From NCBI GenBank assembly GCA_026400105.1, contig JAPLPQ010000083.1:45817-109816 (forward strand): DNA of 64,000 nt, given 5' to 3'. Shown here in pieces: positions 37,327 to 50,345 of this stretch (its first letter is position 1; the number at the start of each line of letters is the position of its first letter). A model generated the notes under the pieces. That model saw only the letters and a list, made by a program, of their open reading frames with translations, was not told where the DNA came from and ran no database searches. The DNA comes from Burkholderiales bacterium (GTDB lineage Bacteria > Pseudomonadota > Gammaproteobacteria > Burkholderiales > Burkholderiaceae_C). The translations under genes and the position numbers were made by a program.

Positions 37327-38316
<990 letters not shown>

Positions 38317-38344
38317 AGACGGCTCAGTCCGTCCGCCGCCGCCG

Positions 38345-38791
38345 CTAGCGGTTCCAGCAATCCGCCACGCCGAGCGACCCGCTCACGCCCTGGGTGCCGG
38401 TCTGGTCAAGCGTGAAATTGCCGCATTCGTCGCTGGCCATCGAATTCACTGCCGTGGCCGTCAGTAGGTAGCCTATGTTCGTGACGCTGGCACTCAAGGT
38501 GTAGTTCTCGCTGCCCGACCTGGGCACCTGGGTCACCGGCAGGGTGGGGGCGGTGTTGTTGCCCTTGGCCGTCGAATAGAAGCCGCGCGTCGTGTAGTGG
38601 GTTTCTAGGAACAAGGCGTTCTCCAGCAGGGCCTGCTTGGCCTCGGCCCGCTTGCCCCGCGCCAGATAGCTGACATAGGACGGCATGGCGATCGAGGCCA
38701 GGATGCCGACGATGGCGATCGTGATCATCAGCTCGATCAAGCTGAAGCCGCAAGAGTTGCGCATCGGTCGCAGGTGTCTAGTCAAGCTCAT
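38345..38791 (-). CDS. Type IV pilin PilE-like protein
   Basis: [43 protein letters not shown] prepilin signature; C-terminal Cys pair. Confidence 0.9.
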
Positions 38792-38803
38792 TTCCTAATC
38801 TTG

Positions 38804-41800
38804 TCACATCAACTGCTGCCAGTTGACGCGCCGGGGGGTGCCGGCTACACCTCGTCCGCGGTTGGTGATGGTCTGGACCTTGCCCCGCGTTCCCGGCACC
38901 AGTTTGAAGCCGACCTTGGCATCCCGGTCCAGCCAGGTCACCGAGTCCATCAGTCCGACGATGGAGCCCATTCCGGTCGGGATCACGCCGTCGAGCACGG
39001 TATCGTCGCCGGTCTTGAATTGGTAGTCCTGGTTCAAGTCGAACACCGGTTTGCTCGGACGTCGCCCCTTGAACGACAGTTCCATCAGCCAGCTCGAGCC
39101 CTGCGCGTTGCAAGGGTCGGCAGACGGAATGGCAGTCGTGAAGATGATGCGGTTGTCGGCCGAACTGACGTTGTCGACCACGATCGTGGCTTCTGCGATC
39201 ACCCGCTCGCCGCTGTCGGGCAGGTCCATGTACCAGCCGCGCTGGTTGGGGTTGCTGAGATCGACCGCGTTGTCCGATGTGACCCGCAAGCTCATGCCGT
39301 TCTTGCTCGTGGTGTTCGTGACCTTCTGCTCAACCAGCGCGTTGCGCCCGCTGATTGACAGGCCATTGTCCCAGAGCCCGTAGAAACTCTGCAGGCGCGA
39401 CATGGCGGTCGCCCCGATGTCCTCTTTCGCGAGCAGTCGGCCGGTGCCCAGGAACACCCAGAAACCGTCATCGCCCTTGATGGCGCTGGGCTGGACCGTG
39501 ATCGGCTGTGCGTTGCCGCTGCTGTCCAGGGCCGTGAACAGCTTGGACACGCTCCAACTCGAAGAGGACCCCGACTTGAGGTCGAACTTCCACAGATTGC
39601 CCTTCAGGTCGCCGGCATAGGCCATGTCGACGATGTGGTCGCCATCGCTGTCGACCAGAGTCGGGGTCGACAGGCCATTGTCGCTGTCGGTCGCCAGGGC
39701 CGTGATCTTCTTGATCAGGGCCCCGTCGGACAGCCTGACGACATAGAGGTGAACCCCGCCCTTGCTGCTGTTGTAGCCATTGCCGAACACGGCGGCCCAG
39801 TTGCCGTCATTGAGTCTGACCACCTGCGGCTGGCTGTAGCTGTAGCCCATGTCGTTGTCGGACTCGTCGGCGTTGAACTCCCACATGAACCTCGCGGGCG
39901 AAGCGTTGGCCGGGTTGGTGGCGTCGACTGCGAACACTGACTTGCCGCCGCTGCGCAAGCCGGAGACGACCACGCTGTTCCAGCCCGAGCTGTCTGACAG
40001 GTCATTCTTGAGGTAGGCATCGCCCGCGCCGGGCGAGCCGTCCACGAAGTAGCGGTGGCTGTAGTCCGGACTGGTCAGCAGGTGCAGGTTGGGAAAGACG
40101 GCGTTTGGAATCACCGCAAATTGTTCGACGCCATCGCTGGCCCGGAACGCATGCAGCATGCCGTCATTGGCACCGACATAGATCATCGGTGCCCGGGTTT
40201 TCTTGTAGCTGACATAGGCCGCATAACTGGACTTGCCGTCGCTGCCCGCCGCCAGCTGGTCGTAATGCTGGTTGTCGGTGCCGAGGTAGGCCGGGTCCGA
40301 GGAAATGATGTCGCCCAGCACCCATTCGCTGCGGTCCTGCCTGGCTGTGCCGTCGTACTGGCGCTCGAAGGCGATCCGGTTGCGAAACAGGCCTCCGGTG
40401 TAGCGCTGTTCCATGCTGTGGTCGCCGCGCAGCCAGTTCAGGCGCTGGCTGCCCAGGTTGTCTGACTTGTTCAGATGGTTTTTCTGGTCGTTCGTCAGAT
40501 TGCCCCAGGCCAGGTTTTCACTGGCGTTGCCTTTCCTGATGTAGATCGACCTGGCGTCGGGCGCGGGCAGCATGGTCGCAGCGTTCCAGAGCGGACCGCT
40601 CACGCTGCCGCTGACCGCATTGACTTCGAGTGCATACAGTTGTCCGCTCCAGTAGCGCGTGTCGAAGCGGGCCTGGAAGATGCGAGTGCTCTGGCCCGAA
40701 CTGCCGCTGGTCCTGGTCGAGTTGGTTGCCAGTGCGGCGGCGGTCGGGGTGGCCGCCTCGATCAGGGACAGCAGCTTCTCGAACGAGTACTGCAGGGTTT
40801 CGGGCGTCTCGGCGCTGAAGAAGCGACCGCGGCTGTTGACGGCCGTATGCCAGAGGTCGGGAGCGCTCTGGCCGTAGATGTCGGCGTATTTCGGATCGGT
40901 TTTGCCCATCCACTTGGTTGCTGGCGGCCATTCCAGTGCGCCCGAGCGCAAGCTCGAGTAGCTGCCGCCGTACATGTCGCCGTTCCAGTTCAGCCCGGCG
41001 GCGCCCAGGAAATCGGTCAGGCCGAGACCGATCGTGAAGTTCACCATATGCTGCCAGCTGGCCGGATTGTTCTTCGGGTTCCAGTAGATCGTCTCGGCCT
41101 GGTCCAGCACCCCGTTGCCGTCGCTGTCCTCTTCGGTCGTGATGGGGCTGAGGTTGTCGCTCAACGATGGCGCCAGATCGGTCAGCCAGTAGTAGAAAGC
41201 CATGTCGGCCAGGGTGTGCGGCGTGGTGTCGGCGTAGACCTGGGCGTAGTCGGCGCTGTTCTTGTAGCGGGTGCCATCCGGCATGGTCTGCCCGTTGTTG
41301 TCATCGGTGTCGTTGAAGTCCTTTTCGTCGTTCCAGATGCCGTCGGTCATCAGCGCGTGGTAGTTGCGCCGGCAGCTGAACTGGCCTGAACCGACGATGC
41401 CGGGGCTGTTGGCGTAGGGGCTGTTGGCCGTCGTGGTGTCGCTGAAATACAGGCCGGCTCGACTCATGGCCTGGCGCAGCGGCGTGTCGCCAGAGGTGGG
41501 CAGCCTGAACAGCCAGTTGTAGAAGTTCTGGCGGTGCTGGCTCGTGCTGTCGCCGAATTCCTGGATCGCATTGCTGCCGAACTTGATTCCCTGGCCCTGC
41601 CAGCCCCAGCAATCGGGTGTGACCAGCTTGTCGCCCACCTTGTCGTAGCAGGTGTTGAGCGCCTGCCAGGCCACACGAATCCTGGGGCTGAGCTGCGAGA
41701 AGGCCAGCGAGGCGCTGCCCTGCGTCGCGAGGTTGCGGGTGCGGTAGAAGGAATACCAGTTGGCGAAATTCTGCCGCTCGTCGCTGCCGTTGGGCCCCGA

Positions 41801-42754
41801 GGTGGCGCTGACCTGCACATAGCGGTAGCAGCTGTTGTTCTTTTTTTGCGCCACTGGGTCGGCGCAGCCGGACTGGCTCGCATCGAACAGATAGTAATAG
41901 GCGGGCACACCACCAAAAGCCTTGCTGGGTTCTCCGACCTGGCTTGGCGCCGACACCTTGAGGCGAGCGACCACCGCCGCACCACTGTTGTTTTCATTGA
42001 AGCACAGGCGCAGGGTGTTGCTGTTGATGAGCCTGCTCCTGAAGCGTCCGTCCGCGGGCTGGACGCTGGGGTTGCAATTGTCCCTGCTGGAGTTGCCGTC
42101 GCCGCTGAACGGGACGCCGTTGACGCTCACGCTGACCAGATTGCTGCCGGGGTCGACACCCTTGACGCTGCCGTCCACATCGACAAAACCGGTGATATCG
42201 AAGTAGGGCACCTCTTGGTTGTTCTTGTTGCCCAGCATCACGCCGCTGACTTCCCGCTCGCTGTTCTGGCCGATGAAATGCCCCATATAGCATTCGTAGT
42301 TGCCATCGCCACCTTCAACGCCGATGCACGACTGAAAACCCGTCATGTCGAGTGCTGCGGTCGGCCGGTAGTTGCTCGACAGGTCTACTTTTACCTCGAA
42401 ACCAGATCCATTCCTGTAGTAGCCATTGCGCCAGGCGGCATCGAACTGGGTGTCGAGCGTCTTTCGGTCCGCGCCCACTGGCGCCGAATAGACCACCCTG
42501 GGGTTGTAGTAGAGCCCGTTGCCTTGCGCGGATTTGGCCCAGCGGTTGTCAAGCGCGGCGCAGTCGCTGCTGTCGCCGCAAAGCTCGGGTACATAGGCCC
42601 GCCTCATGCTGCCGGAATCATCGAGCGTCAGGATCAGGTTCGGATCGACCTGGTTCGACAGGAACAGTGGCACATGCTCGATGTCGAAGCTGTCCGCCGG
42701 GCCAGACAGCAGCAGCACGCTTGTCAGGGCCAGTTTCAGGCTGATGCGCTTCAT
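38804..42754 (-). CDS. PilY1/PilC-family type IV pilus adhesin/assembly protein
   Basis: 1316 aa; C-terminal beta-propeller region (YVGANDGMLHAFRASDG...GDLKGNLWKFDL) and Ca-binding-type DSDGDHIVD; ATG at 42754 chosen. Confidence 0.9.
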   Translation of the reverse strand: MKRISLKLALTSVLLLSGPADSFDIEHVPLFLSNQVDPNLILTLDDSGSMRRAYVPELCGDSSDCAALDNRWAKSAQGNGLYYNPRVVYSAPVGADRKTLDTQFDAAWRNGYYRNGSGFEVKVDLSSNYRPTAALDMTGFQSCIGVEGGDGNYECYMGHFIGQNSEREVSGVMLGNKNNQEVPYFDITGFVDVDGSVKGVDPGSNLVSVSVNGVPFSGDGNSSRDNCNPSVQPADGRFRSRLINSNTLRLCFNENNSGAAVVARLKVSAPSQVGEPSKAFGGVPAYYYLFDASQSGCADPVAQKKNNSCYRYVQVSATSGPNGSDERQNFANWYSFYRTRNLATQGSASLAFSQLSPRIRVAWQALNTCYDKVGDKLVTPDCWGWQGQGIKFGSNAIQEFGDSTSQHRQNFYNWLFRLPTSGDTPLRQAMSRAGLYFSDTTTANSPYANSPGIVGSGQFSCRRNYHALMTDGIWNDEKDFNDTDDNNGQTMPDGTRYKNSADYAQVYADTTPHTLADMAFYYWLTDLAPSLSDNLSPITTEEDSDGNGVLDQAETIYWNPKNNPASWQHMVNFTIGLGLTDFLGAAGLNWNGDMYGGSYSSLRSGALEWPPATKWMGKTDPKYADIYGQSAPDLWHTAVNSRGRFFSAETPETLQYSFEKLLSLIEAATPTAAALATNSTRTSGSSGQSTRIFQARFDTRYWSGQLYALEVNAVSGSVSGPLWNAATMLPAPDARSIYIRKGNASENLAWGNLTNDQKNHLNKSDNLGSQRLNWLRGDHSMEQRYTGGLFRNRIAFERQYDGTARQDRSEWVLGDIISSDPAYLGTDNQHYDQLAAGSDGKSSYAAYVSYKKTRAPMIYVGANDGMLHAFRASDGVEQFAVIPNAVFPNLHLLTSPDYSHRYFVDGSPGAGDAYLKNDLSDSSGWNSVVVSGLRSGGKSVFAVDATNPANASPARFMWEFNADESDNDMGYSYSQPQVVRLNDGNWAAVFGNGYNSSKGGVHLYVVRLSDGALIKKITALATDSDNGLSTPTLVDSDGDHIVDMAYAGDLKGNLWKFDLKSGSSSSWSVSKLFTALDSSGNAQPITVQPSAIKGDDGFWVFLGTGRLLAKEDIGATAMSRLQSFYGLWDNGLSISGRNALVEQKVTNTTSKNGMSLRVTSDNAVDLSNPNQRGWYMDLPDSGERVIAEATIVVDNVSSADNRIIFTTAIPSADPCNAQGSSWLMELSFKGRRPSKPVFDLNQDYQFKTGDDTVLDGVIPTGMGSIVGLMDSVTWLDRDAKVGFKLVPGTRGKVQTITNRGRGVAGTPRRVNWQQLM

Positions 42755-42794
42755 GGTGGGATTCCCTCTGGGCATGTAGGTGGGGCGGCTGGCT

Positions 42795-43445
42795 TCAGCT
42801 GGCTTCCAGGCACAGGCGGTATTCGCTCTGCAGCAGCACCCGGGTGTCGGCCTGCTTGCGCGACCCGGTCGAGGCTCCAACCGCCAGCGCGGTGATGCGG
42901 TAGCGGTAGTGCGTCTGAGGCAACGTGCAGTCCACTGAAGGTGCGGCCGTGCCCAGGTATTCGATCGCGAACCTTGGCTGCTGATCCACGCCCTGGATGG
43001 CATGGCTGGTCGCGATCGACCTGCTGTTGTTGACCGCTCCGTTGGCGTCGAACCAGCCGTAGCCGTTCGCGCCAGCGGGACTGACCCAGTAATCGGCTTT
43101 CGATGCCTGAACGATGATCGAAGTCTTGGCGCTTGCACTGAGTGTGGCGGAGTTCCGGTTGAGCAGGCCTGCCGCCACGTTTTCCACGTTGCTGTTGATG
43201 CTGTCCGCGAGGATGGCATGGAACTCGAACGCCAGCCTTTCCTCGGCGTCCACCAGCGCGGCTTCGGCCGCCTGGAAGGCCAGGTCACGGTCGCGCGTGT
43301 TGCTGCTCATGACGGCCTGCAGGCGTCCGCTGCGCGATGCCGCCAGCACGACCAGCGTGATCAGCACCAGCAGCAGCAGGCCGGTGATCAGCACGATGCC
43401 GCGCTGACCATGGAGGGATCTGGGGCGATGGCGGTAGTTGTTCAT
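42795..43445 (-). CDS. Type IV pilus minor pilin PilX
   Basis: QRGIVLITGLLLLVLITLVVLAASRSGRLQAVMSSNTRDRDLAFQAAEAAL. Confidence 0.85.
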   Translation of the reverse strand: MNNYRHRPRSLHGQRGIVLITGLLLLVLITLVVLAASRSGRLQAVMSSNTRDRDLAFQAAEAALVDAEERLAFEFHAILADSINSNVENVAAGLLNRNSATLSASAKTSIIVQASKADYWVSPAGANGYGWFDANGAVNNSRSIATSHAIQGVDQQPRFAIEYLGTAAPSVDCTLPQTHYRYRITALAVGASTGSRKQADTRVLLQSEYRLCLEAS

Positions 43446-44491
43446 GACAGTCGCTTGCGCAGGCCGAAAGTCATCGTGTAGCTGCGCCGCAGCCGGCGGT
43501 CGGTGATGACGGTCCCGTTGCCGAGCGTGAAGCTGCTGCTTTCGGTGCTCACGTTGTCGTCCTGGGATTCGAGCATCACGGTCACGCGCACCGCCAGCAC
43601 CCTGGTCCAGTCGGTCACGTTCCTTGCCTCGACATAGGCACTGATGACCAGGGTACCGTCGGCGTTGGGTGTTCCCACGCCATAGAGAATCTGCAGATCC
43701 GTGACGCCGCTGACCAGTTCTTCGGCCGAGGTGGCAGGGGCATTGCTGCTGGTCGTCAAGGTCTGACGGTAGAGCGACGGGATGAAGCTGTTGCTGCGGC
43801 TGTACTTGCGGCCACTGTTGCGCAGGTAGTAGGCGTTGGCAGAGAGCGGCAACAGCTTGGCTCCGGTCATGTTCTGGCTGGAGCCGGTGGCCAGTGCTGT
43901 GCTGTGCTGGATGCCGCCTGTATTGCCCGTCGTCTGGAACAGCGAGGCCGTCGTTTGGCAGTCGGTCAGCAGCAGCAGGCTGCCGATATTGAAACTGCCG
44001 CTGCTCAAGGCAATCGGGTTGGTGGAGCCGGTGCTGTAACTGGAAACGACACCAGGCGCTGTGTCGTCGGCGTTGGCGCGCAGCACGATCAGGGTGTCGC
44101 CTCTGAGCGCGTTGGGTCCGTAGCCGCCCGGTGCGGTCTGGGGGAAGTTCGCATCGCCCACCGCGTTGCTGTCTGCGGTCTCGTCCTGTCCGAACAGCGG
44201 CCGGTCGGTGTTGCTCCACCATTGGGTGGCGTAGTTGTTGATGAAATTGGCGGGCTTGGCCTGGCTCGGTATCTGGCAAGTCATGTTGCCCGCCATCCGG
44301 ATGTCGTAGCCCATGATCTCGAACACATAACGCGCATTCGACTGCAGTTGACCCAGTGCCTCGAGCTGGCGGTAGCTGCCGGCCGTACTCAGGTAGAGGG
44401 CCACCAGGGCGCCGACGACGACCAGTCCGATGCTGATGCTGACCAGCAGTTCGACCAGGGTCAGCCCGCGGGCATGGCGACGCGATTTCAT
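43442..44491 (-). CDS. Type IV pilus minor pilin PilW
   Basis: ARGLTLVELLVSISIGLVVVGALVALYLSTAGSYRQLEALGQLQSNARYVFEIMGYDIR. Confidence 0.87.
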   Translation of the reverse strand: MKSRRHARGLTLVELLVSISIGLVVVGALVALYLSTAGSYRQLEALGQLQSNARYVFEIMGYDIRMAGNMTCQIPSQAKPANFINNYATQWWSNTDRPLFGQDETADSNAVGDANFPQTAPGGYGPNALRGDTLIVLRANADDTAPGVVSSYSTGSTNPIALSSGSFNIGSLLLLTDCQTTASLFQTTGNTGGIQHSTALATGSSQNMTGAKLLPLSANAYYLRNSGRKYSRSNSFIPSLYRQTLTTSSNAPATSAEELVSGVTDLQILYGVGTPNADGTLVISAYVEARNVTDWTRVLAVRVTVMLESQDDNVSTESSSFTLGNGTVITDRRLRRSYTMTFGLRKRLS

Positions 44492-44967
44492 ACCCCCCCC
44501 TCCGTCTTGAAGCAAGCGGGCCTGGTCTCGGTGCAGCTGCAGCCTGCTTCGCAGTCAGGCGCGCCTGATCGGCGGTCGTTCCATTCGATCCAGATCCTGG
44601 CAATGCGGGAGTCTGCGTCAAACTCGACATGGCCGTCGCCATCCGGCAGCGCCTGCGCGATCCGGTCCTTCCAATGTTCGATGTCTTCAATTGCTACGGT
44701 GCTGGGGCCTGCGGCTGCCGAATCGCCGCCGGGCGCCACCACGTAAGCCGCTGACTGGTCGTGATTGATGTTGTTGAGCACGCGCATGCTGTCGAGGATG
44801 TCGTTGGCCAGGAAGGTGGCTTCTGCGCGGTGGAGGGTGCTTTGGTTGTTGTGCAGGTTGCTGACCTGCAGCTTGGCCAGACCCAGCAGTCCGATCGTCA
44901 TGATCACGATGGTGACCAGGACTTCCAGCAGGGAACTGCCGCGCGCGGGGTAGGAGTGACGGGTCAT
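44488..44967 (-). CDS. Type IV pilus minor pilin PilV
   Basis: ARGSSLLEVLVTIVIMTIGLLGLAKLQVSNLHNNQSTLHRAEATFLANDILDSMR. Confidence 0.87.
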   Translation of the reverse strand: MTRHSYPARGSSLLEVLVTIVIMTIGLLGLAKLQVSNLHNNQSTLHRAEATFLANDILDSMRVLNNINHDQSAAYVVAPGGDSAAAGPSTVAIEDIEHWKDRIAQALPDGDGHVEFDADSRIARIWIEWNDRRSGAPDCEAGCSCTETRPACFKTEGGV

Positions 44968-45617
44968 GGGCTCTCGCAGTTCTGCAGATTGCTGCCGTCG
45001 CCTTTTTCGGGGATGCCGTTGTTATCGCTGTCGGTCGCCAGCACCGATCGGGTCGCGATCACCAGGATAGCCTGGGACTTGTTCAGCTCCCTGTTGGCGC
45101 AAACCGCGAAGGTTCCACTTCCCAGCCCCCAGACCAGGCCTGTGCGCAGGAAGGTGATTCCGTTCGTGAAGTTGCTGTTCGGGCGCACGGTAACCCCAGT
45201 CGGCAGGTCTTGTCTGGTCTGTAGCAGTAACTCATTGTTGTCGCGTGCGGGCACCGCCCCCTCGCTGATGCCGTCCTCGTTGACGAAGGCGATCCATCCG
45301 CTGTCCCAGCCAGTGCCCGTGGATGAGCAGCTGCTGCCGTCGCTGCTGGGGCAGATGCTGACAGGCTGGCCGCGGCGAGCGGCCTCGGAGCGGGCCAGAT
45401 TCAACATGCCCATCAACTCGCTGGCTACGGTTCGGGTCCGGTTGGCCTGGATCATGGTCTTGAAAGACGGGGCGGCGAGCGCGCCGAGAATTGCCACGAT
45501 CGCGACCGTCACCATCAGCTCCAGCAGGGTCAAGCCATGCTGGCGCCTGGCCGGCCAGCCGCCTTGTGGCGAGGAGGGTATGGATCGCAGCATGTTCCGG
45601 TATGTCAATGAAAGCAA
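44964..45617 (-). CDS. FimT/GspH-family pseudopilin
   Basis: QHGLTLLELMVTVAIVAILGALAAPSFKTMIQANRTRTVASELMGMLNLARSEAARRG. Confidence 0.87.
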   Translation of the reverse strand: MLSLTYRNMLRSIPSSPQGGWPARRQHGLTLLELMVTVAIVAILGALAAPSFKTMIQANRTRTVASELMGMLNLARSEAARRGQPVSICPSSDGSSCSSTGTGWDSGWIAFVNEDGISEGAVPARDNNELLLQTRQDLPTGVTVRPNSNFTNGITFLRTGLVWGLGSGTFAVCANRELNKSQAILVIATRSVLATDSDNNGIPEKGDGSNLQNCESP

Positions 45618-45713
45618 TGTGAGACCATGTATCCATGCTGGTATGTCCTTGTTGGATATCTCAGCATTTCGGTTTCTGTCAGTTTAAATCCAAAAGACCG
45701 AAAAGTGTTTGAT

Positions 45714-48700
45714 TCAGTGCGGGCTTGCTGACTGGCCGCTGGCGCGTGCATGCAGGGTTGCTTTTTCGCCTATGTGGTCCAGGCCCTCGAAGGGGAATTC
45801 GGCCGCGACGAATTCCCGCACTGGCACGGCCATGACGATGGCGTCGACGCGGGTCGACAGCGCGAGCGCGCGCGCGCGCGGGTAGCTGCCTGTCAGCGCC
45901 ATCTGGCAGCGGGCGCCCGAGGGTTCGAGCGTCAGGTCGGGGCCGGTCAGGTAGGCCCGCAGACCGTCCGTCAGCAAGGCCTGCCAGCGCTGGCTGGCCG
46001 CGGTCCAGGCGGCTTCGCCGCCGACGAACACCTCGATCGGTATCCGGCCCCGGTCCTCGATCAGCCAGTCCAGCAGGACCGGGATCTGGCGGCGCGAGAT
46101 CTCCCCGCCGCCCAGTTGCGGCGCATGGTTGACTTCGTTGATGATGGCGCCGTTCTCGAACCAGGGGCGAGCGATGTCGGGCGTGATCAGGTCGATGCCG
46201 GCGATGTCGAGCCCGAACAGCCGGCTGGCCTCGAGTGCGATCCTGAGGTTTTCCGGGTGGACGATGGCGCTGACCTTTTCGTCGACGCCGCCCCATGCGG
46301 TTGACTCGATCCGGCGCAGGGCTATCCGGCTGCCAGCGGGCGGCACGGAGTCGGCGCTGTAGCCAGCCGCCGCGAGCGCGCTCAGTGCCAGCGCGTCGAG
46401 CGGCTGGATTTTCGAGCGTTGCCAGGGCGGCAGGCGTCGCTGCGCCTCGAGCTCGGCCTGCACGAGCTCGGCGATCGGATGCCGGCCATCAGCCATGACT
46501 GACATCGGCAGGCGCTTGACGGCATACAGCAGCCGGCCCCTGGCGATGAAGAGTCGGTGACAGCAGCCGGCCACCTGCCGCTCCACGATCACCTGCCTTG
46601 ATGGCGAAAGGCCTTGCACCGCGGCGAAGGCGGCCTCAAGCGCGGCCTGATCGGCGACATCAACCGTCACGCCTTCGCCCCGGTCCAGGTCCAGTGGCTT
46701 GACCACCACCGGCCAGCCCAGCCGCTGCGCCGTCGCCAGCGCAGTGTCCGCGTCGGTCACGACCTGGTGCTGCGGCGCTGGCAGTCCCGCCCCTTGCAAC
46801 AGCCTGGCGGTCAGCGCTTTGTTTTGCGCCAGCCGCGCGCCGATGGCCGAGTCGAGCTCGGTCGCGCTGCGGTCGATCCGGTGCGACTTGCTGCCCCAGC
46901 CGAGCTGGAAGACCCCGCCGCCCAGATGAATGAAGGGAATGCCCTGGTCATGGGCGGCCTGCAGCAGCGGCAGGGTGGACTTGCCGGGCGGCATCAGTCT
47001 TGTCAGCCGGCCGATCACCCGGCTGGCCTCGTCGTAGAAGCCCTGGAGGCTGGCTTCGGTCAGCGTCTGGCTGGCGGCCAGATCGCAGAGTCCGAGCGCC
47101 GCCGTCAGGGCTTCGCTGTAGGCCGAAACGGGCAGCTGCTGGACCAGGGCCAGCGCGACCCGCGCCTGCCAGCGGCCCGTTTCGGCGTCGGGCCCGTTGA
47201 GCGAGATGATCTGCGGCGGGTCGAACACCGGAATCCGGCTTGCCTGCAGCAACTGGCGCGCGAGCAGCAGGGCGCGCCACAGCCATTGGCCGGCGCGTTC
47301 CTGCGGCGCTGATGGAGGCGACTGCGAGCAGCTGGCCGCCGGATCGATGGCTTCGATCGGTGTCTGCAGGACCCGCATCAGCCAGCCGTCCAGCGCTGGC
47401 AGGTCGACTGCTGCGGGCAGGGTGAAGCGCTGCTCGAAGCTCTGCAGTCGCTGCCGGCGCTGGCTGGCTGCTGGCGCCGGTTTTTGGCCCTGCGAATCGG
47501 CCTGTGCGCCAGGCGTGAGCAGCCTGGCGCCGATCAGGCGCAGCAGCTCCGCGCGCATGAGCTTGCCTTCATGGTTGCGCGGGATCGCATCGACGATCAG
47601 CACCCGATAAGGGCCACGCGCGCCGAGCTGGCTGCTGGCATGCTCGAGCAAGGCCTGTTCCGATACGGTCGCTCCGGCTCTGAGGGTCAGCGCGCAGACC
47701 GGAATGTCCTGGTGCACCCGGTGTTGCACCGGCACCACGGCCACGTCGGCGACGGCGGGGTGGGCGGCCATCAGCTGCTCGATCTCGGCCGGGTAGATGT
47801 TGATCCCGTTCATGATCAGCATATGGTCGGCGCGGCCGTAAAACACCAGCTGTCCCTCGCGGGTCAGCAGGCCGAGATCGCCGGGCAGGAACCAGCCGTC
47901 CTGGAAGCTCGCCCGCGAGGCCTCTGCGTCGCCGAGGTAGCCATCGACCAGCGCCGGCGTCCTGATCCGGACCAGACCGACCGTGGCGGGCGGCAGCGCC
48001 TGTCCGCGCCGGTCGACCAGCTCGATCTCGACCCCGGCCGGTGGGCGGCCGACCGTGCCCGCGATCTGATAGACCTCGGGTGGACCCGCGATCGCGACCG
48101 GTCCGGCCTCGTTGATGCCGTAGCGGACGTAGAGCTGCGGGGTCAGCCGCTGTCTGAAGCGCTGGCGCAGGTCGTCGCTGACCGTCGAGGCCGTGAGCTC
48201 GAACGCCCGCAGCATCGGCAGGGCCGGCGGAGTCTCTCGGTTGCCCGCCGGCAGCGCGGCGATCAGCTGCTCGGCATGGAAGACGGTGCCGTAGAGCACC
48301 GAGAGCCTGTCGCTGGCGCAGCGCTGCAGCACGGTGGCGGTATCGGTCCACAGTTCCAGCGCGCAGGCGGCACCGGCCCACAGGGCTTCGTGCAGGCGGA
48401 ACTTCGAGGTCGAGAAGTCGAAATGGCTCAGTGCCGCTACCCGGTCCGACGCTGTCAGCCCGAGCGCCCTGGCGCCCAGTTCCGACCTGGCGCGTCCTTG
48501 GGCGTGACTGACCGGGATCAGCTTGGGCCTGCCGGTCGAACCCGAACCCGTGATCAGCAGCCAGGGGGCTTCCGGCGCTGGCACCAGCAAGCGGCTGTCG
48601 ATCCGGGCCGGGCTGGCCTCGATCGCCTGGCGCTCCAGCCGCAGGCTGGCGACGCCAGATTCGAAGCGCTCGGGCTGGTCGCTCGCGAGCCAGACCATGG

Positions 48701-48998
48701 CAGCCCGTTGCGCCATCTGCCGACGCTGGCTGGCGGTCGCGCTGCGCGGGATCGAGTAGGCGGTCGCACCGAGGCGGGCCAGCGCCAGCAGCGCCAGCAC
48801 CAGGCCGAGTTCCTCGACGAAGCTCAAGCCCACGACCTGGCCGGCCCGCACGCCCTGGGCCTGCAGCGCAGCGGCGTATTGCCAGACCGACTGGTCGAGC
48901 GCGCGAAAACCTATCGTCCTCTGGGGCAGCAGCAGGGCCGCAGCATCCGGGCGCGCCTGGGCATGCCCGATCAGGTCAAAAGTGATATTTCTCTGCAC
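45714..48998 (-). CDS. Fusion of adenylate-forming (AMP-binding) ligase and cyanophycin-synthetase-like ATP-grasp ligase
   Basis: AMP-binding motifs GSGSTGRPK, YGINEAG, GWFLPGDLG, YGRADHMLIMNGINIYPAEIE, NHEGKLMR; ATP-grasp motifs KPLDLDRGEGVTVDV, VERQVAGCCHRLFI, INEVNHAPQLGG; GTG start at 48998. Confidence 0.85.
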   Translation of the reverse strand: MQRNITFDLIGHAQARPDAAALLLPQRTIGFRALDQSVWQYAAALQAQGVRAGQVVGLSFVEELGLVLALLALARLGATAYSIPRSATASQRRQMAQRAAMVWLASDQPERFESGVASLRLERQAIEASPARIDSRLLVPAPEAPWLLITGSGSTGRPKLIPVSHAQGRARSELGARALGLTASDRVAALSHFDFSTSKFRLHEALWAGAACALELWTDTATVLQRCASDRLSVLYGTVFHAEQLIAALPAGNRETPPALPMLRAFELTASTVSDDLRQRFRQRLTPQLYVRYGINEAGPVAIAGPPEVYQIAGTVGRPPAGVEIELVDRRGQALPPATVGLVRIRTPALVDGYLGDAEASRASFQDGWFLPGDLGLLTREGQLVFYGRADHMLIMNGINIYPAEIEQLMAAHPAVADVAVVPVQHRVHQDIPVCALTLRAGATVSEQALLEHASSQLGARGPYRVLIVDAIPRNHEGKLMRAELLRLIGARLLTPGAQADSQGQKPAPAASQRRQRLQSFEQRFTLPAAVDLPALDGWLMRVLQTPIEAIDPAASCSQSPPSAPQERAGQWLWRALLLARQLLQASRIPVFDPPQIISLNGPDAETGRWQARVALALVQQLPVSAYSEALTAALGLCDLAASQTLTEASLQGFYDEASRVIGRLTRLMPPGKSTLPLLQAAHDQGIPFIHLGGGVFQLGWGSKSHRIDRSATELDSAIGARLAQNKALTARLLQGAGLPAPQHQVVTDADTALATAQRLGWPVVVKPLDLDRGEGVTVDVADQAALEAAFAAVQGLSPSRQVIVERQVAGCCHRLFIARGRLLYAVKRLPMSVMADGRHPIAELVQAELEAQRRLPPWQRSKIQPLDALALSALAAAGYSADSVPPAGSRIALRRIESTAWGGVDEKVSAIVHPENLRIALEASRLFGLDIAGIDLITPDIARPWFENGAIINEVNHAPQLGGGEISRRQIPVLLDWLIEDRGRIPIEVFVGGEAAWTAASQRWQALLTDGLRAYLTGPDLTLEPSGARCQMALTGSYPRARALALSTRVDAIVMAVPVREFVAAEFPFEGLDHIGEKATLHARASGQSASPH

Positions 48999-49016
48999 GG
49001 CGACCTCCGCCGTGCA
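48994..49016 (-). promoter_or_regulatory. Hairpin with SD in loop and GTG start in stem
   Basis: Minus-strand RNA UGCACGGCG-GAGGU-CGCCGUGCA, 9-bp perfect stem. Confidence 0.65.
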
Positions 49017-49018
49017 GT

Positions 49019-49045
49019 CTAGTCCTGGGGTTCTTTCCAGGCTAG
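49019..49045 (-). promoter_or_regulatory. Second hairpin between lysA stop and ligase-fusion start
   Basis: Minus-strand RNA CUAGCCUGG-aaagaacc-CCAGG(a)CUAG, 9 bp with one bulged A; no U tract. Confidence 0.55.
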
Positions 49046-49052
49046 TGCTGAT

Positions 49053-50345
49053 TTATATCGATTCGAGTCGTAGTTGATCCTCGACCGATTCGCGTGCACG
49101 CACCAGTCGCGCCTGATCGCCATCGACCAGCACCTCGGCGGCCCGGCCGCGACTGTTGTAGTTGCTCGACATGCTCATGCAGTAGGCGCCCGCCGAGCAG
49201 ACCGCCAGCAGGTCGCCGGCTTGCACCGCCAGCTGGCGGTCGCGTCCCAGCCAGTCGCCGCTCTCGCAGACCGGGCCGACCACGTCCCAGGTCTGGATTT
49301 CGCCATTGGCCTCGCGCGGCTGCACCGGCACGATCGCGTGGTAGGCCTCGTACATGGCGGGGCGCGGCAGGTCGTTCATCGCCGCATCGACGATCAGGAA
49401 GTTCTTCTGTTCGCCGGGCTTGAGGAATACGGTTTCGGTCAGGCAGATGCCGGCGTTGCCGATCAGCGAACGGCCCGGCTCGATCACGAGCTTGCGCTGG
49501 CCGTAGCCACGCGCGTCGAGCTTGGCCAGCAGCAGTTGCCACAGCGCGTCGGCCGCCGGCGGGGTCTCGCCGTGGTAGTTGATGCCCAGGCCGCCGCCGA
49601 AGTCGATATGTTCGAGCGTGATGCCGCCGGCCTCGATCGCATCGACCAGATCGAGCACGCGGTCCATCGCGTCGAGGTAGGGCGAGGTCTCGGTGATCTG
49701 CGAGCCGATATGGCAGTCGATGCCGGTGACTTTCAGTCCGGGCAGCGCAGCGGCATGGCGGTAGGCTGCCAGTGCGTCGGTGTGCGCGATGCCGAACTTG
49801 TTGCCCTTGAGACCGGTCGAGATATAGGGATGGGTCTTGGCGTCGACATCGGGGTTGACGCGCAGGCTGACCGGTGCACGCAGGCCCATGCCAGCAGCGA
49901 CTTCGCTCAGCACATCGAGCTCGGGCAGGCTCTCGACGTTGAAGCAGCCGATGCCGGCCTCGAGGGCCAGGCGCATCTCGGCGCGGGTCTTGCCCACGCC
50001 CGAGAAGATCACCTTGGCCGGCTCCACGCCGGCGCGCAGCGCGCGCTCGAGCTCGCCGCCCGAGACGATGTCGAGGCCGCAGCCGGCCTGGACGAAGGTG
50101 CGCAGCACGGCCAGCGTCGAGTTGGCCTTCATCGCGTAGCAGATCAGGGCCTGGCGGCCGGCGAAGCCACGCTGATAGGCCGCGAGCGCGTCCAGCATCG
50201 CGGCCTGGGAATAGACGAACAGCGGCGTGCCGTGCTCGCGCGCGAGTTCGGCGGCGGACACGCCCTCGACCATCAGCTGGCCGTCGCGGTAATCGATGAA
50301 GGGACGTGCCGGCAAATCGGTCCGGGCTTGTTCGAGTGAAGACAT
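49053..50345 (-). CDS. lysA: Diaminopimelate decarboxylase
   Basis: CYAMKANSTLAVLRTFVQAGCGLDIVSGGEL PLP site, EPGRSLIGNAG, CESGDWLGRDR. Confidence 0.96.
   Translation of the reverse strand: MSSLEQARTDLPARPFIDYRDGQLMVEGVSAAELAREHGTPLFVYSQAAMLDALAAYQRGFAGRQALICYAMKANSTLAVLRTFVQAGCGLDIVSGGELERALRAGVEPAKVIFSGVGKTRAEMRLALEAGIGCFNVESLPELDVLSEVAAGMGLRAPVSLRVNPDVDAKTHPYISTGLKGNKFGIAHTDALAAYRHAAALPGLKVTGIDCHIGSQITETSPYLDAMDRVLDLVDAIEAGGITLEHIDFGGGLGINYHGETPPAADALWQLLLAKLDARGYGQRKLVIEPGRSLIGNAGICLTETVFLKPGEQKNFLIVDAAMNDLPRPAMYEAYHAIVPVQPREANGEIQTWDVVGPVCESGDWLGRDRQLAVQAGDLLAVCSAGAYCMSMSSNYNSRGRAAEVLVDGDQARLVRARESVEDQLRLESI

Follow-up and report, generated by a model that had tools for sequence, protein, structure and literature searches.

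We describe a protein encoded in a 64,000-nucleotide stretch of DNA (the window) from a Malikia-type genome of the Comamonadaceae (G000:C71; named relatives M. spinosa and M. granosa), in which an AMP-forming ligase (A half) is fused to an ATP-grasp ligase of the type found in the cyanophycin synthetase CphA. With two acid-activating ligases in one chain, and the same two as neighbour genes in relatives from distant bacteria, the system looks like a compact, carrier-free amide or peptide builder. Our main reading, to which we give a probability of about 0.5, is that the fusion is an NRPS-independent, two-step amide synthase giving an acyl-dipeptide-like product. The sequences themselves show both ligase types, their intact catalytic residues, purifying selection on both, one clade of partnered forms and exchange of the A gene next to a constant ATP-grasp partner.

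Table 1 Features of the fusion gene and its surroundings (window coordinates).
Feature	Coordinates	Strand	Remarks
Minor-pilin/PilY1 operon, downstream	38345-45617	(-)	In the same swapped lysA-msrP block as the fusion gene
Fused AMP-forming ligase and CphA-type ATP-grasp ligase	45714-48998	(-)	1094 aa, GTG start; four Malikia genomes
Remnant of CphA Mur (M) domain, residues ~976-1080	45759-46073	(-)	P-loop absent; collinear alignment, hhalign
CphA-type G domain (ATP-grasp), residues ~666-975	46074-47003	(-)	Catalytic residues retained; Asp-recognition residues replaced by LRRIESTAWGGVDE
CphA-type N domain, residues ~526-665	47004-47423	(-)	Assigned by position and collinear alignment
Linker, residues ~491-525, ~35 aa	47424-47528	(-)	Variable, Pro/Gln/Ala-rich; without carrier-protein domain
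A half, residues 1-490, ANL enzyme with large and small subdomain	47529-48998	(-)	Pfam PF00501 and PF13193, aligned motifs
Leader hairpin 2, 10-bp stem	48993-49017	(-)	GTG (48996-48998) in 3' arm; Shine-Dalgarno GGAGG at loop
Leader hairpin 1, between lysA and fusion gene	49019-49045	(-)	
lysA (diaminopimelate decarboxylase)	49053-50345	(-)	54 bp upstream of fusion gene; adjacency Malikia-only

The reading frame had been placed correctly in a preliminary description of this DNA, and three other Malikia-type genomes carry it uninterrupted, with 76-90% identity. The same description saw two types of ATP-dependent ligase in one chain, and the Pfam, NCBIfam and PDB matches agree. Pfam recognizes AMP-binding at residues 12-355 (E 1e-35) and AMP-binding_C at 405-479, together with ATP-grasp/RimK matches; the top NCBIfam match is cyanophycin synthetase at residues 662-962 (E 1e-71), a score far under the family cut-off; and PDB matches are to CphA1 structures (7lgn) at 636-1021 and to MenE and acyl-CoA ligases at 10-486. 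The view that no carrier domain lies between the halves and that the protein is not an NRPS also holds, since Pfam gave no carrier or condensation domain in the window protein at E ≤ 1 and the linker spans only ~35 aa. An NRPS fragment is ruled out by the absence of these domains, and a frameshift or assembly artefact by the conservation of the fusion in four genomes under purifying selection. An AlphaFold model built from eight sequences reached a pLDDT of 58.5, and pocket geometry is therefore not derivable from it.

We compared the ATP-grasp half with CphA1 using the residue roles given in the TeCphA1 structure paper (PMC9427784). The catalytic residues K220, K261, R309, R323, D431 and E450 are retained in nearly all family members, including the window protein, whose phosphate loop reads KPLDLDRGEG against KPLDGNHGRG in SuCphA1, with H267 changed to Arg. 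In TeCphA1 the incoming Asp is held by N394, S396 and R458, and the primer arginine is contacted by E215 (PMC9427784); at these positions the window protein has S, A, G and R, respectively. Most members share in place of the Asp-recognition residues a common signature, LRxIESTxxGGxDE; the product is therefore probably not cyanophycin, and the loss of the Asp-binding residues means that the nucleophile is probably not aspartate. Judged by these residues, the ATP-grasp half is probably active, although probably not on cyanophycin substrates, and cyanophycin synthesis by the fusion is unlikely. A partner of basic or lysine-like character would be consistent with the lost Asp-binding residues.

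The preliminary description had reported no Mur ligase domain after the ATP-grasp. No working Mur domain is present, but a Mur remnant of ~100 aa without a P-loop persists at the C-terminus. The family profile runs collinear with the beginning of the M domain of CphA1, at an hhalign probability of 86% (E 6e-7) compared with 1.5% for the N domain as control, and the C-terminal stretch RIPIEVFVGGEAAW aligns with CphA RIPVVAVTGTNGKTT. The remnant reads VGGEAAW where the CphA P-loop is TGTNGKTT, so the arginine-adding site is gone. Profile comparison gave a weak match of the family's N region to the CphA1 N domain. Altered Asp recognition, the lost Mur P-loop and an AMP ligase in front uphold the earlier statement that the protein is not CphA.

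The A half carries the features of the ANL superfamily, namely the P-loop TGS/TGRPK, YGxxE, GDL, the hinge motif and the C-terminal catalytic Lys, and all eight A partners aligned keep motifs A3, A5, A7, A8 and A10 and the catalytic lysine. By sequence, acyl/aryl-CoA ligases are nearest to the A half. Foldseek returned only ANL enzymes among the matches listed, acyl-CoA ligases and McbA among them. The FDxS-like motif of the Malikia A half (NRPS specificity code) is not kept in other A partners, and the code therefore gave no substrate prediction. Between Malikia species, Nei-Gojobori omega (dN/dS) lies at 0.16-0.23 in the A half and at 0.14-0.28 in the ATP-grasp domain, which indicates that both catalytic parts are maintained; it is 0.28-0.48 for the Mur remnant and looser, at 0.47-0.79, for the N domain. 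Both halves thus retain their catalytic residues and evolve under purifying selection.

A search for AMP-binding plus ATP-grasp fusions, as the preliminary description had suggested, found full-length examples in G523 besides the four Malikia genomes; G523 belongs to the window genome's phylum but to a different class, and its ATP-grasp half is 44% identical. Three more genomes encode the parts as separate genes close together: the Chlorobiaceae MAGs L029 (9560-11065 and 11171-12829) and L030 (9974-11476 and 12687-14345, with a DUF772 transposase gene in between) and G903 (L072, 6991-8493 and 8563-10365). The two ligases are thus genetically coupled by fusion in Malikia and G523 and by adjacency elsewhere. 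ATP-grasp members also stand alone in G067, G147 (as a tandem pair), G221, G688, G780, G214, G1777 and G1519, and the many relatives lacking an A partner indicate that the ATP-grasp half can act alone. Members are rare: matches at E ≤ 1e-62 occur in 4 of 399 genomes of the window's phylum, its own genome counted, and of the 248 genomes searched in the phylum of the Chlorobiaceae, none but the two MAGs matched at E ≤ 1e-72. Searching plasmids for close homologues gave no full-length match.

A second, different short CphA-like ligase lies immediately upstream in G523 (L043, 10785-12761) and G903 (L072, 4997-7012), hinting at a three-ligase pathway there. In G1573 a relative is spread over two ORFs (L094, 8592-10414), possibly a decayed gene.

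The ATP-grasp units paired with an A half group together in a single clade (97/97) within the signature family (100/99), with the stand-alone members outside it, and the A partners form one clade (100/99) against sampled ANL enzymes, with limited outgroup sampling. A single origin of the partnership is therefore likely. The two trees place G523 differently, beside Malikia for the A half (95/92) and among the split forms for the ATP-grasp half (86/89), so that either one fusion event or two would fit. In Chlorobiaceae, DNA identity between L029 and L030 is 94% through glmS as far as the A gene and 93% from the ATP-grasp gene on, whereas the A genes, in the interval between (L029 9445-11164 versus L030 9941-12680), have no nucleotide match and encode proteins only 30% identical; a sister relationship of the two A proteins was rejected (AU p 0.002). 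These data are best read as replacement of the AMP-ligase gene next to a constant ATP-grasp partner. Faulty binning or assembly of one of the MAGs is a less likely cause of the difference: chance contamination would not predict that both A genes fall in the same A-partner clade. Given that the A gene is swapped while its flanks and partner stay at 93-94%, it behaves as an exchangeable specificity module.

For the two-step synthase, we infer an acyl-AMP plus acyl-phosphate mechanism, with direct amidation by the A half, the order of steps set out below and both halves serving one product. The A half would adenylate a carboxylic acid to R-CO-AMP and use this to acylate an amino acid or another amine, as amide bond synthetases do. 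The ATP-grasp half would then act on a carboxylate, which most likely belongs to the N-acyl amino acid just formed; it would phosphorylate this group and couple the acyl-phosphate to a second amine, yielding an acyl-dipeptide-like product. Tentatively, at somewhat less than even odds, the family may constitute a new class of modular carrier-free amide/peptide synthase, in which an ATP-grasp core derived from CphA combines with an AMP-ligase module that can be exchanged, either by fusion or in an operon and sometimes with a second CphA-like ligase (G523, G903), to make undescribed acyl-peptides in distant bacteria. If so, cyanophycin-type chemistry would reach small-molecule assembly, and the fusion would offer two amide-forming sites within one biocatalyst chain. 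That the AMP ligase has been swapped in nature while its partner stayed constant suggests that acid specificity could be changed via module exchange, and the IEST signature offers a means to find the family in genomes annotated just as 'cyanophycin synthetase' or 'AMP-binding protein'.

The pairing of AMP ligase and ATP-grasp chemistry is itself already known. ABS and ATP-grasp enzymes are paired in CysC/CysD (cystargolide) and BelV/BelU (belactosin) (PMC11427300) and in DdaG/DdaF (dapdiamide) and Cp1B/Cp1D (PMC12568646). As proposed here, DdaG/DdaF, CysC/CysD and BelV/BelU use an AMP-forming amide ligase and an ATP-grasp ligase to make an acyl-dipeptide scaffold with no NRPS assembly line; however, they are separate proteins whose ATP-grasp partner is not reported to be CphA-derived, and the likeness drawn here is one of logic. 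McbA-type amide bond synthetases share the ANL fold but have no ATP-grasp partner and are ~20-22% identical to the A half. The bifunctional CysFE (PMC11427300), a fusion that involves an adenylate-forming enzyme, likewise unites two active sites, yet it forms a beta-lactone and removes its methyl ester, with no ATP-grasp involved.

On the cyanophycin side, CphA1 shares the N domain and ATP-grasp G domain (G domain ~35-38% identity) and the same ATP and acyl-phosphate residues, but differs in its Asp-recognition residues, in having a full Mur domain where the window protein has a P-loop-less stump, and in lacking an AMP ligase fused ahead. Short CphA-type proteins without a working Mur (PDB 8fxh and 7ta5), which we take to be CphA2, have ~630-640 aa, comparable to the stand-alone relatives, and one ATP-grasp active site; unlike the fusion, they have no AMP ligase partner. 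The layout of N, G and truncated M domains fits CphA2, although the N-domain profile match is weak. CphA2 joins beta-Asp-Arg dipeptides (PMC10206079), whereas the residues by which CphA1 holds Asp and Arg groups are not retained in the window protein. No named family or paper for an AMP-ligase/CphA-type fusion was found in the available literature, which included few subscription journals, and to that extent the enzyme remains undescribed, as first supposed. The same literature gave no account of the two ligases in one chain, of an ATP-grasp partner derived from CphA, of the altered signature or of the swapped A module.

The position of the gene next to lysA had been taken as a hint of a lysine- or diaminopimelate-related substrate. 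This guide is weakened, as the adjacency is unconserved outside Malikia, where family members adjoin glmS, nap or other genes, and the block is exchanged within the genus. G003, a fifth genome of Malikia, matches the window in DNA up to the end of lysA and again from msrP on (window 38314-49062 versus L085 6824-10317); the interval holds a divergent pilin set in opposite orientation, with 26-46% protein identity where matched, and the fusion gene is absent. Given that the fusion gene and the minor-pilin operon lie within one exchanged block, adjacency to lysA is weak evidence for a lysine substrate. No consistent pathway genes were found in the neighbourhoods of family members, which, like the many ATP-grasp relatives without an A partner, counts against the two-step synthase. 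Stand-alone relatives adjoin autotransporters in G147 and G221 or a two-partner-secretion protein in G1777 (L033 13317-15308, L044 11535-13733, L092 11520-18296), 2OG-Fe(II) oxygenase genes lie near those of G147 and G221, and SulP-type anion transporter genes neighbour two stand-alone relatives in different genomes (L032 12747-14570, L093 10908-12416). The window genome also has two ordinary cyanophycin synthetase genes in tandem (L086 1-3738).

Several other readings were weighed against the two-step synthase. The A half could be an acyl-CoA or acyl-carrier ligase that charges CoA or a carrier encoded elsewhere, the ATP-grasp half performing a separate step of the same pathway. Sequence does not separate such a ligase from an amide bond synthetase, the top scores of the A half are to acyl-CoA ligases (MenE, FadD-like), and its closest outside relatives are Comamonadaceae AMP-binding proteins adjoining acyl-CoA dehydrogenase and alpha/beta-hydrolase genes. 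However, no acyltransferase, carrier or thioesterase gene was recognized around partnered members, and an A half fused to an amide-forming ligase would more likely use its acyl-AMP directly; we regard this arrangement as unlikely, though it is the foremost alternative. The order of steps could also be reversed, such that the ATP-grasp half first joins an acid to an amino acid and the A half then amidates the C-terminus. The E-64 pathway, which has ATP-grasp and ABS enzymes of its own, runs in exactly this order (PMC12568646), and the stand-alone relatives show an ATP-grasp half able to act alone. Since the usual substrate of the CphA G domain is a chain already linked by amide bonds, whose C-terminal carboxylate it activates, this domain suits the second step better, and an E-64-like order seems rather improbable.

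Two further readings were considered. Protein modification by RimK-like peptide tagging, for example of a surface protein encoded nearby, appears quite doubtful. In its favour are the RimK Pfam match and the surface proteins that adjoin members (autotransporters, the two-partner-secretion protein and, in Malikia, the minor-pilin operon); against it, these proteins differ in kind, the Chlorobiaceae, G523 and G903 forms are without such neighbours, and an AMP ligase would be unexpected for such a function. Least probable of all is a modified synthetase of a cyanophycin-type storage polymer, its acyl starter supplied by the A half. Short CphA-type proteins have a similar N-G-truncated M layout, and a standard cphA pair also occurs in Malikia, but N394, S396, R458 and the primer contact E215 are all altered and the arginine-adding Mur site is gone.

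The 54-nt gap between lysA and the fusion gene contains two hairpins in all four Malikia species (shuffle z -5.9, -6.9, -1.7 and -2.6). In the stem of hairpin 2, one pair is altered on both sides in L028 and M. granosa has one mismatch; covariation counts were matched by 126 of 500 shuffles, not clearly above chance, and the pairing is therefore suggestive only. Hairpin 2, which sequesters the GTG start codon, may control translation. L028 is titled as a Chitinophaga pinensis MAG, yet its contig is Malikia-like across 23 kb and appears mislabelled.
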